From Parcubacteria group bacterium GW2011_GWA2_43_11 (GTDB lineage: Bacteria > Patescibacteriota > Minisyncoccia > Phycocordibacterales > UBA12088), in NCBI GenBank assembly GCA_000998805.1, contig LCFC01000007.1, positions 1-33,081 on the forward strand: a DNA stretch of 33,081 bases. The letters run 5' to 3'. Positions within the stretch are counted from its first letter, which is position 1, and each line of letters begins with the position of its first letter. The notes beneath the pieces were generated by a model. That model was not told the DNA's origin. It made no database searches and worked only from the letters and a program-made list of their open reading frames with translations. The translations under genes and the position numbers were made by a program. Below, piece after piece: positions 7,269-24,256 of this stretch.

Positions 7269-8678
7269 TTAGTAATTCTTCAGATAACGTGCCATGTCGT
7301 GGTGACGGATTTTTTCAATAGCCTTAGCTTCGATTTGTCGAATACGTTCTCGTGTTACACCAAACTCACGTCCCACTTCTTCAAGTGTGTGGTAAATACC
7401 GTCCTCAAGTCCATGTCGCAAGACGAGAATCTTTCGCTCCTTTGGAGAAAGGAAATCAAGTATTGTGTGCAGTTGTTCTGTGAGGATATTGTGTGACGTG
7501 TCTTGATCTGGACTTTCCATAGTGTCATCTTTGATGAAATCACGAAGCACGGAACGGTCGTCGTCGGCGTCACCCACTGGACTCTCAAGTGAAATAGTAT
7601 CCTGACTAATCTTTTCAATAAGGTAAATTTTTTCTACCTCAATACCCATTTCAAGTGCCACCTCTTCTTGCGAAGGGTCACGTCCAAGGTCTTGGGAAAG
7701 ACGTCGAAATACTTGTTTGTACTTGGTAATCGTTTCTACCATGTGTACCGGTATACGGATGGTGCGAGACTGGTCTGCAAGTGCGCGCGTAATAGCCTGT
7801 CGTATCCACCACGTGGCGTATGTCGAAAACTTGTAACCCTTGGTATAGTCAAATTTATCGACAGCTTTAAATAGACCAATGTTTCCCTCCTGTATAAGGT
7901 CGAGTAGCGTCAAATCTGGACTTCGTCCTATATAGCGTTTGGCAATAGATACGACGAGTCGCAAGTTTGAACGAGCGAGAAGATTGCGTGCTTCTTCTTC
8001 CCCGTCCATGACCCGCTTTGCTAGTGTGCGTTCTTCGGATATCGATAGGAGATGGTACTGCCCTATCTCTCGCAGGTACATTTGAATCGAATCGTGTGCT
8101 GAGTTGCGTCCACGCTGGTAGGTGTTTTTTTCTGAAGGGCTAAGCATTTTCTCATCACTAAGTATGTTACCTCCCTCAATCATGTCTATGCTCGCAGCAG
8201 CAAACTTCTCGTAGAGTTCTTCAAGGAAAGGAATGTCTTCTTCTATGGCTGGAAATTCCCGAAGAATTTCGTCATATATGACATAGCCACGTTCACGCCC
8301 TTTTTGCAAAAGCATATTTGTTCTCTTTCTCTGGTCGACTTGTTTTGGGCTAAGCTTCACCGCTGTTTTCTTCGGTGATGCTTTTTTTGCCACCTTCTGT
8401 ACAGGAGTTTTACTTTTAGAAACTTTTTTTGCAGATTTAGCATTTGCTTTTACTACAGCTTTAAGCTTCTTTCCTGACAATCTCTCTTTTGTTGATGCAA
8501 TTTTTTTTATTGCATTTGTCTTCTTTTTTGCGACAGGCCTTGTGGTCTTAACTGTCACTTTATTTTTCGTCACCTTTTTGGGTGTGCGTTTAGGAGCAGT
8601 CGTTTTTTTGGCGACCACTTTTTTTCCTGCCTTTGCAGGCATGGACATTTTCTTCTTATGTATTGATTTAGAAGCCAT
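7269..8678 (-). CDS. rpoD: RNA polymerase primary sigma factor (sigma-70) with Lys/Ala-rich N-terminal extension
   Basis: 469 aa; [54 protein letters not shown] and [28 protein letters not shown] are regions 2 and 4 of sigma-70. Confidence 0.97.
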
Positions 8679-8716: not shown

Positions 8717-10456
8717 TTACTCAAGGGTGCTTTTAAACTTAGTCAGCTCATGTGCTTGGATATCAAGTTCCTCTTTCTTTTTTGTATCGCCGTCTCGTTC
8801 TGCTGCTCGTTGTGCAAGGGTGAGAACATATAGTTCTTCCGTTGTATATATTTTTGCCAAATCATTCATGAGTGAGCGTACCTCTACTGGTAGAGTAGTT
8901 ACGCTCTCATAGGTTACTTCAGCTTTCATTACAAGCAGATCTTTCTGTTCTGAGTACATGGCCAGTATCTTATCAAGTGGTATGTTGAAATCGTCTCGCA
9001 TTTTCGCCAGCACCTTTTCGTCTAGCAACCGTGGTTCGCATGTTTCTTGCCAAAATATAATACCTGCTAATGTTTCCTCAAGATCTGTTTTTCTCGAAAA
9101 CGGTTCTTTGTTTTTTTGTTTTGCTTGTTGTGCAGGGTTGTATACAGCGCGAGGGGCTTCACTTGCAGGTGCCGTTCTGTCGAGCTGACGTAGTTCGTCC
9201 CATACTGCATCTTCGCTGATACCGAGTACGTTTGCATAGTTGTGTACAAATTGGGCCTTGTCGGTGGCGCTTCGCACCTGTTGTATGTAGGGTAATACGG
9301 TATCACGTGCGTAGAGGACAAGTTGACGTTGGTCCCATTTTTTTTCTTGTGCTTCACGTAGTGCTGTATCAAGATAAAAATCAACTACATGCTTCGAGTT
9401 ACGCACAGCCTCTTTCCACAAATTCGCATCCTCTAAGATGCAGTCTGCAGGATCTTTCCCTATGGGTACTCGCGCAACTTTTACATCCATACCTCGTGTA
9501 AGGGCAAGCGATGCACCACGACCACTCGAAGCAACTCCCGCAGGATCTGCATCGTATGCCATAACGAGTTTTTTCGATAGTCGGTCGAGAAGCATCAAAT
9601 GGTCTATGGTGAGGCTGGTCCCTGAGGAAGCTACCGTATTGGCGTACCCTGACTGATGACTCATAACTAAATCCATCTGACCTTCGACGAGTATGGAAAA
9701 ATCGTATTTGCGGATAAATTGTTTCGCTTTGTTATAGCCAAAGAGAATTCTGCTTTTATCAAAAAGAGGAGTTTCGGGTGAATTGAGGTACTTTGCGTTT
9801 TTGTCATCCTTTGCCGCTTCGCCAAAAATACGCCCACTAAAGGCTACCACTCTGCCCGCAGCATCCATGATGGGAAAAATGATACGGGAACGAAAGCGGT
9901 CATAGTATCCTCCTCGCTCACCTTTCTTGATGAGTCCAGCTTGCTCTATCTCCCTCTCGTGGTAACCGAGCTTGGTAAGGTGGGTAAGAAGTGTTTGCCA
10001 ATCCTCTGATGCAAATCCCAGTCTGAAGCTTCGCATAGTTGCCTCTTCAAGTCCGCGTTTCTGTAAGTACTCCCGAGCTTGCGTTTGCTCACTGAGTTTC
10101 GTTTCAAAGAACTGTGTTGCGGCTTCTAGGATAGCGTATAGCGTATCTCGCGTGTCACGAGATTGCCTACTCTCTGTGTGAAGCTCTATGCCTGCCTTTT
10201 CTGCAAGAATTTGCAATGCTCCCTTAAAGTCCACACCTTCCATTTTTTGCACAAAAGAAAAGACATCACCCCCTTGTCCTGAAGAGAAATCGTAGTACAT
10301 GCCTTTGTCAGGACTTACAAAAAAGCTTGGTGTTTTTTCATTACCAAAAGGTGAAAGTCCTTTAAAATTTTTTCCTGCTTTAGAGAGCTTTACGTACTGT
10401 CCGATAACATCAATTATGTTTATTCTTTCTTTTATTTGTTGTGTTTGGTCACTCAT
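8717..10456 (-). CDS. dnaG: DNA primase DnaG
   Basis: 579 aa; IDVIGQYVKLSKAGKNFKGLSPFGNEKTPSFFVSPDKG..., TOPRIM VEGQMDLVMSHQSGYANTVASSGTSLT and AYDADPAG. Confidence 0.95.
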   Translation of the reverse strand: MSDQTQQIKERINIIDVIGQYVKLSKAGKNFKGLSPFGNEKTPSFFVSPDKGMYYDFSSGQGGDVFSFVQKMEGVDFKGALQILAEKAGIELHTESRQSRDTRDTLYAILEAATQFFETKLSEQTQAREYLQKRGLEEATMRSFRLGFASEDWQTLLTHLTKLGYHEREIEQAGLIKKGERGGYYDRFRSRIIFPIMDAAGRVVAFSGRIFGEAAKDDKNAKYLNSPETPLFDKSRILFGYNKAKQFIRKYDFSILVEGQMDLVMSHQSGYANTVASSGTSLTIDHLMLLDRLSKKLVMAYDADPAGVASSGRGASLALTRGMDVKVARVPIGKDPADCILEDANLWKEAVRNSKHVVDFYLDTALREAQEKKWDQRQLVLYARDTVLPYIQQVRSATDKAQFVHNYANVLGISEDAVWDELRQLDRTAPASEAPRAVYNPAQQAKQKNKEPFSRKTDLEETLAGIIFWQETCEPRLLDEKVLAKMRDDFNIPLDKILAMYSEQKDLLVMKAEVTYESVTTLPVEVRSLMNDLAKIYTTEELYVLTLAQRAAERDGDTKKKEELDIQAHELTKFKSTLE

Positions 10457-22210: not shown

Positions 22211-23116
22211 TTATTTCGTATTGAAGTACTCAAAAAGCGCTTTGATACCCGCAAGGTTTTTGTCCCACTCAATAGTTTCGTGTGTTGACAATTCTACAGT
22301 GATGGCAGGTATGTTAATGGAAGCAAGCCATCCTTCTGCGTCACCGGTAATCTCATATGCATCGAAACTGTCTACAGCTTTGTATCCAGAAGCTTGAGAG
22401 TATGCGTTCATAATATTGCGGGTGATTGGAAGAATACCGTTTTGGCATTCAGACGCGTAGACAGCGTTTGATTGGCTGTGAAAAAATACAACAGCTTGAG
22501 GTTTTTTCTGGAGAACAAAATCTCGTATTGCCTGTGCTTCTGGCTCAGAAAAAGCGGAAGCACCTGCACTGACTGGTTTGTCACGCCATGTACTTGTAGG
22601 TTGCCACTTGCAATCAAAATTTCTATTCAGGTCAACTTTGTTGGAGTTAAAGCGACCTTTCCCTTCTGTATCAGTTACAGTTCTTGCTTCATCAAGCGTG
22701 AAGCGTCCTCCCGTACCGAGTACTGCAAATAGTCCATCTGGGTTGGCAGAAGGTATTACCGATACCTGTAGATTTAGTGGGATTAGACTGGGGGTAGCAG
22801 TAAGCTGATCAATTAGTGCATATGCTAAGAGAATACTATTCCATTCATATCCACCATGGATACCACCTACAAAAAGCAGATGAGTGTCTCCATTTCCAAA
22901 AGTGTACGCCTCAATAGGTCGTCCCGAAACGGAGTTACCAATCGTGACCTGTTTTAAGGGTTCACCAGCATCCTTTGGTTTTTGAACAGGTTCCTCGTTA
23001 GTCATGGGGACTGGTCTCTCTTCTGGTGGTGCATCAATGAATATAAAAGCAAGTATTCCCAGGACAAGGATGGGTGTGAGTAAGAGAACAATAAACTTGG
23101 GTGAAAGGCGGGGCAT
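22211..23116 (-). CDS. M14-family zinc carboxypeptidase-like protein (apparently intact active site)
   Basis: N-terminal TM; GGIHGGYEWN, DLNRNFDCKW, VVFFHSQS, ITVELSTHETIEW. Confidence 0.88.
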   Translation of the reverse strand: MPRLSPKFIVLLLTPILVLGILAFIFIDAPPEERPVPMTNEEPVQKPKDAGEPLKQVTIGNSVSGRPIEAYTFGNGDTHLLFVGGIHGGYEWNSILLAYALIDQLTATPSLIPLNLQVSVIPSANPDGLFAVLGTGGRFTLDEARTVTDTEGKGRFNSNKVDLNRNFDCKWQPTSTWRDKPVSAGASAFSEPEAQAIRDFVLQKKPQAVVFFHSQSNAVYASECQNGILPITRNIMNAYSQASGYKAVDSFDAYEITGDAEGWLASINIPAITVELSTHETIEWDKNLAGIKALFEYFNTK

Positions 23117-24042
23117 TATTCTGCGTAATGATTGAGAACAGCCTCTATAGCACTAAGGTTCATGTTCCACTCTGTATCGGTATGTGTAGTGAGAAGTACA
23201 CTTATAGCTGGGATGTTGTTTTTTGCAAGCCAGTTTACGACGTCTCCCGTAATTTCATAGAAGTCGAAATTTTCATATGCCTGGTACCCTGAAGCATCTG
23301 CGTAAAGAGTCGTCAGTGCGCTCGTTTCAGGTAAAATTCCATTGTGACAATTTGAGGCAAATACGCCACCAAGAGAACTGTACCAAACTATAACGGCAAC
23401 AGGTTTGTGTGATTCTATATACTGTTTAAAAGCAAGTGACTCAGGTTCCGAGAACGGTGCACTACCACCACTTACCTCCTTATCTTGCCAAGTACCCTTT
23501 GTTTGCCAGTCACAATCAAAGTTTCTGTTGAGGTCAACCGTGTGTGCATTGAAGCGTCCTGCAACGGTGTCAGCTTGTATTTGAGGTACGGAGGTTAGGG
23601 AAAATTTACCTGCAGTACCTACGGTTTTGTTAAGTCCATCAGGATTAAGAACAGGTATGATGCTTACGCGTACACCTTCAGGAATACTCTTTGGGTTCTG
23701 CTCTAGGTACTCCATAAGCTCATAGGCCAAGAGAACCGTGTTCCAGGAGTAGCCACCGTGAATACCACCCACAAAAAGTACTTCTTTCTCACCCTCTCCG
23801 AAATGGTAGGCTGTTATATCTCTGTTCTCTACAGATGTCCCTAGTATTGTTTCTTTTTCTATAACTTTTTCCGGCTCCTCAACCTCTTTGGGTGGAGTGA
23901 TTTGATTTTCATCAAATACAAATTCCGGCGCTATCTCTATGCCACTATCGTCGACTTCAATGGTATTAAAATACTTAAAATAAATAAAAATACCTCCAGC
24001 TACAATCATAGCAACCACGGCTATTGTTGTGATTAATTTCAT
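23116..24042 (-). CDS. M14-family carboxypeptidase paralog, predicted pseudoenzyme
   Basis: Clearly homologous to the downstream gene (GGIHGGYSWNTVLLAYEL, DLNRNFDCDWQ, FSEPES, NIPAISVLLTTHTDTEW) but E->S, H->Y and E->L at putative active-site positions. Start at MKLITT (24042). Confidence 0.88.
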   Translation of the reverse strand: MKLITTIAVVAMIVAGGIFIYFKYFNTIEVDDSGIEIAPEFVFDENQITPPKEVEEPEKVIEKETILGTSVENRDITAYHFGEGEKEVLFVGGIHGGYSWNTVLLAYELMEYLEQNPKSIPEGVRVSIIPVLNPDGLNKTVGTAGKFSLTSVPQIQADTVAGRFNAHTVDLNRNFDCDWQTKGTWQDKEVSGGSAPFSEPESLAFKQYIESHKPVAVIVWYSSLGGVFASNCHNGILPETSALTTLYADASGYQAYENFDFYEITGDVVNWLAKNNIPAISVLLTTHTDTEWNMNLSAIEAVLNHYAE

Positions 24043-24256
24043 ACCTATATATTTTAACATAGAAGTGACTATTTCCTCAAAAATTATTGCATGGCTTGAT
24101 TTCGGTATATTCACAACATCTTCACTACATTTATGTAGTATTGGTTGAGAAAGACAGTACATTTACATAGTTTACAAATCTGTCTACGTCATTGGGTTTT
24201 GAGTACATATTTTGTACATCATCAACCTATATAGCAACTCTAAAGAGGAGAGAACC

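Follow-up and report, generated by a model that had tools for sequence, protein, structure and literature searches.

Coordinated and recurrent loss of the zinc ligands from the ribbon domain of a housekeeping bacterial DNA primase

The housekeeping DNA primase (DnaG) of a Paceibacteria-type (CPR) bacterium has lost all four ligands of its N-terminal zinc ribbon, and the ribbon has probably become a folded, selected, metal-free domain in which a network of polar side chains replaces the zinc. We regard the metal-free domain as the best reading since the ribbon holds neither cysteines nor other ligands, keeps its predicted fold and is under purifying selection. The loss of the metal site is real, coordinated and recurrent, and it has given rise to a variant of a known domain, not to a new system. 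The ribbon of DnaG helps to choose the trinucleotides at which priming starts and acts together with the polymerase domain; to our knowledge, the primases investigated to date have proved to depend on their zinc ligands, which counts against the metal-free reading. No description of zinc loss from DnaG in CPR bacteria or Saccharibacteria was found in the literature searched, the scope of which excluded most subscription journals. Bacterial primases may be able to do without the zinc that textbooks regard as necessary, and natural, apparently zinc-free primases in bacteria where no second primase seems to exist make the role of the metal directly testable, a matter of relevance to primase as a drug target, to the Saccharibacteria associated with the human oral flora and to the question of how a zinc ribbon can be reworked to dispense with its metal.

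The dnaG gene encodes 579 amino acids on the minus strand of the window, by which we mean the whole stretch of 33,081 nucleotides that was analysed; it occupies positions 8720..10456, with the stop codon at 8717-8719, and the translation of the open reading frame (8717-10456) reads KGLSPFGNEKTPSF...GMYYDFSSGQGG. The protein scores 394.2 bits against TIGR01391 (cut-off 283.6) and 103.8 bits against the CHC2 profile PF01807 (cut-off 24.9, E 4.6e-30), and the DNAG_N and TOPRIM profiles also match. The N-terminal ribbon domain, recognised by PF01807, AlphaFold2 and a Foldseek match to 1D0Q, spans residues 1-95 (10172..10456, minus strand) and is followed by the DNAG_N and TOPRIM catalytic core at residues 103-425 (9182..10150, minus strand). 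The TOPRIM core is intact, as an earlier note on this DNA had stated, the catalytic residues E258, D302 and D304 being present and invariant in our alignments A1 and A4. Residues 426-579 (8720..9181, minus strand), for which Pfam profiles give no match, are predicted by AlphaFold2 to be helical and, from general knowledge of DnaG, presumably bind the helicase. Directly downstream lies an rpoD-like sigma factor gene (7269..8678, minus strand), identified by inspection of its translation, and this dnaG-rpoD arrangement is that of a housekeeping primase. A PF01807 search of the genome (929 kb, 47 contigs, 77% complete) found no second CHC2 domain elsewhere, and near-complete relatives of the same family carry one dnaG per genome.

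Alignment to the Aquifex aeolicus (2AU3) and Geobacillus stearothermophilus (1D0Q) enzymes places S35, G38, D56 and S59 at the four ligand positions, so that the reading of C/H/C/C to S/G/D/S made in the earlier note is exact; the alignments to the solved structures put neither Cys nor His of this DnaG at these sites. The codons of the four residues start at 10354, 10345, 10291 and 10282, running downward, within the first ligand pair (residues 35-38, S-P-F-G replacing C-P-F-H; 10343..10354, minus strand) and the second (residues 56-59, D-F-S-S replacing C-F-G-C; 10280..10291, minus strand). There is no cysteine in residues 1-100, where the one histidine (H93) is distant, and the only cysteines of the whole protein are at positions 339 and 473, hence no substitute ligand set is visible. 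The domain order, the predicted fold and the landmarks PF..EKTPSF and GGD.F are common to this DnaG and to the canonical CHC2 ribbon, as is the sequence profile, whereas the Cys-His-Cys-Cys ligands that define the latter are absent. Chance does not explain the loss, because 124 of the 199 non-redundant DnaGs collected have exactly C/H/C/C and close relatives carry the same loss.

The change is a coordinated one of about eight positions, not just the four of the earlier note. When 56 Ser-type (S-type) sequences of the order were compared with the 124 that read C-H-C-C, the positions outside the ligands that differed most were K/R29, G33, G58 to S and Q/K61, and the full Ser-type set reads K/R29, G33, S35, T/S/N38, C/D56, S58, S/T59 and Q/K61. 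In the window these are K29, G33, S35, G38, D56, S58, S59 and Q61 (10274..10372, minus strand), where position 38 is T, S or N elsewhere and position 56 is C elsewhere in the order. Such a set is not what one would expect if a metal site had decayed neutrally.

The ribbon is under strong purifying selection, like the core. Measured against the 91% identical protein of a relative (G002; NG86), dN/dS is 0.034/0.786 (about 0.04) for the ribbon and 0.021/0.485 for the core. AlphaFold2 predicts the full-length protein from 37 sequences with a mean pLDDT of 90.8, mostly 87-94 in blocks of the ribbon, and from 14 S-type sequences only with 83.8 overall. The predicted ribbon comprises helices at residues 2-11 and 14-18, five short strands and helices at 65-73 and 77-88. 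The structure prediction proposed in the earlier note returned a ribbon fold: Foldseek superposes the S-type-only model on 1D0Q over 92 residues (44% identity) with TM-scores of 0.89/0.87 and an rmsd of 0.9 A, and on 2AU3 at 1.7 A, and the predicted core matches 5GUJ with a TM-score of 0.87 by target length. These models support folding of the ribbon without metal but are not proof of it, as AlphaFold2 models no metals and may take a known fold from homology.

The earlier note had left open whether the loss is lineage-wide in CPR or local, and surveys of the order, class and phylum indicate that it is neither: it is clade-wide in its own family, patchy in the order and not CPR-wide. All ten genomes of the family are S-type, with S-x-D-S/T in the genus of the window and S-x-C-S in three sister genera; five other species of the genus read S-G-D-S, S-T-D-T, S-R-D-S, S-Q-D-S and S-K-D-S. 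In this genus a series that runs from C-H-C-C through S-x-C-S reaches its last form, S-x-D-S. An even draw of 397 genomes from the order gave 370 with a match, at least 50 of which are S-type (S-x-[C/D]-[S/T]), a lower bound since not every low-scoring genome was read. They belong to ten families (f1, f12, f25, f30, f39, f42, f52, f59, f61 and f85); C-H-C-C is the state of the remaining families read, and both states occur in f42 and f61. S-type relatives that carry a name are Kaiserbacteria, Parcubacteria and Paceibacterota MAGs. One member of f42 (locus L171, genome G323) has a C-H-C-C DnaG nested in an S-type clade with the flanks of the S-type family; it has either reverted, undergone a patch conversion or kept the ancestral state. 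Its sister L150, of the same family, reads S-T-C-T, and the cores of the two are 70% identical. Two different S-type dnaG genes (L161 and L162) occur in a single bin of f61 (G179), as paralogs or through a mixed bin, and in the genome of a sister genus a 486-aa frame contains a further CHC2-like match, a partial one (L041, G008:C24:4017-4124), perhaps a mobile-element primase.

S-x-D-S is also found in further families (phylum survey, 380 genomes). In a second class, 142 of the 147 genomes surveyed had a match and 48 loci were read, giving S-x-D-S/A/T in 15 families and C-H-C-C in two (f144 and f164). Possible intermediates retain the His, as S-H-D-A (f303) and S-H-D-T (f307), or the Gly of FGC (f221). 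TM7580F, a 16S primer for Saccharibacteria whose sequence is given in PMC6073563, has exact matches in 5 of the 14 genomes tested from this class but in none of 6 from elsewhere, and the class is almost certainly Saccharimonadia, in which the Ser-type ribbon is nearly class-wide among the families read. Fifteen Saccharimonadia-type sequences share the preferences R29, G33, S58 and K/R/Q61. Such DnaGs (for example L196 and L302) resemble that of the window in S-x-D-S with FSS, G33, K/R29 and K/Q/R61; they differ in having their own IWHDF background, IWHCFGC having become IWHDFSS in Saccharimonadia and YYCFGC, via YYCFSS, YYDFSS in the order of the window. In the broader class to which the window belongs, the fourth ligand alone is sometimes lost (C-H-C-G), and one Dehalococcoidia MAG has C-H-C-A; loci L103, L104, L112 and L119, the Dehalococcoidia MAG included, are the DnaGs that lack the fourth ligand only.

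Many phage primases carry the same form. Viral contigs were scanned with the exact pattern S-P-F-x-x-E-K-T-P-S-F, which preselects Ser at the first position and leaves the other ligand positions free; among the 88 viral stretches found, 72 of the 80 loci scanned (L353-L432) align as DnaG-type ribbons and nearly all of these are S-x-[C/D]-[S/T]. Named S-type examples are Caulobacter phage Sansa (L447, S-T-C-S) and copies on Methylobacterium megaplasmids. Phage and prophage proteins (L447, L393, L379) have the motif GLSPF[T/N]xEKTPSF...[C/D]FSSG as in the window type and some exceed the TIGR01391 cut-off, although they are phage-encoded and at best some 30-40% identical. The S-type is not the norm for chromosomal DnaG of alphaproteobacteria: the S-type copies there are only phage or prophage-like ones, and the housekeeping copies of Sphingomonas (rpoD-linked), Sinorhizobium, Paracoccus and Tistrella are C-H-C-C.

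Two lineages of bacteria, at the least, underwent related ligand loss independently of each other. Trees (INDEPENDENCE) used only the polymerase core, excluding the columns of the trait itself, and S-type groups were defined by ligand state and not by the tree. A single origin of all losses was rejected (lnL difference 156, p-AU 3.9e-37), as was a single origin within the order (p-AU 6e-101), these p-values being somewhat optimistic because rows were picked after earlier trees had been seen; a single loss within Saccharimonadia was not rejected (p 0.099). Well-supported branches force at least six state changes in the order, and bootstrap trees give 9-12. How the ribbon spread is a separate matter, and its transfer by domain recombination, between lineages or from the phage primases, is a serious though unlikely alternative to repeated loss by point mutation, one that concerns origin and is compatible with a metal-free ribbon. 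The core tree shows 11 state changes, against 6 for a ribbon tree built without the signature columns, and domain swapping may therefore explain some of the spread; S-type ribbons also find other S-type ribbons more frequently than the corresponding cores do (241 against 166 of 280). However, the 81 ribbon columns resolve little, further covarying columns would give an equal signal, and the ribbon columns also mildly reject one origin (p 0.028). Moreover, the IWHDFSS of Saccharimonadia sits beside IWHCFGC neighbours, the order has its own YYCF/YYDF, and L171 keeps the flanks of its family.

To account for a ribbon that works without zinc, we propose that Ser35, residue 38, Asp56 (where sister lineages have Cys), Ser58 and Ser59 would form a compact polar network, assisted by K29, G33 and Q61, that takes over from Zn2+ in holding the two loops to each other. 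The metal-free sheet would still dock on the polymerase core, bind the single-stranded template and help to choose start sites, possibly with an altered preference, and the likely benefit would be a primase that can fold without zinc. Most S-types of the order retain one Cys (C56), so the chemistry of the domain may partly differ from 'fully metal-free'. It is improbable that the ribbon has instead lost template recognition and been kept as a structural or docking piece of a primase that starts anywhere, perhaps directed by DnaB. The ligand-bearing loops do sit in the region presumed to sense DNA, in the DnaG of C. difficile the choice of trinucleotide is altered by a residue adjacent to the third ligand (PMC5204125) and low-specificity DnaG-type primases exist, namely TtDnaG2 (PMC5634424), but basic and aromatic positions near the loops are conserved (K/R29, Y54, F57, GGD) and purifying selection on the ribbon equals that on the core. 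Binding of another cation through the oxygen ligands that S-D-S supplies is very unlikely, given that sister lineages have S-x-C-S/T and that K, R, Q, G, T, S or N at position 38 leaves no consistent ligand set. Although the genome is an incomplete draft, an artefact of sequencing, frame or pseudogene formation is refuted, and the exclusion of frame damage in the earlier note upheld, by the open frame, a dN/dS far below 1 and the agreement of five other species of the genus in independent assemblies.

The metal-free ribbon thus remains our preferred reading, and we tentatively extend it to bacterial replicative primases at large, which might have two interchangeable states, zinc and metal-free Ser-type, repeatedly switched, possibly in both directions, in CPR bacteria and phages; zinc would then be a replaceable clamp and not the priming mechanism. 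Ten S-type genomes gave no match to AEP primase (PF01896) or Prim-Pol (PF09250), and with dnaG as the only primase gene found the S-type DnaG probably does the cell's priming.

Genome-wide shedding of zinc was considered and rejected: CxxC motifs persist in the UvrA, PriA, DnaJ, RecR, LeuS and ValS of the genome, as identified by NCBIfam, and CxxC pairs in its S14-like protein, by inspection. The cell, judged by these motifs, probably still uses zinc, and the loss would be selective. Ribosomal protein L36 of the genome has no Cys (locus L256, minus strand, 54-aa frame). Cys-minus L36, L31 and L33 are likewise zinc ribbon proteins that have lost ligands, but they are usually paralog swaps under zinc control, whereas the DnaG of the window is the only primase found. 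Foldseek also gives a weak structural match of the S-type ribbon model to the N-terminal region of Twinkle, a primase-helicase relative reported without its zinc ligands; priming is generally considered lost in Twinkle, while the catalytic residues of the window DnaG are intact. Elsewhere in the window, at 22211-24162, two adjacent similar genes look like M14-type carboxypeptidases that arose by tandem duplication.
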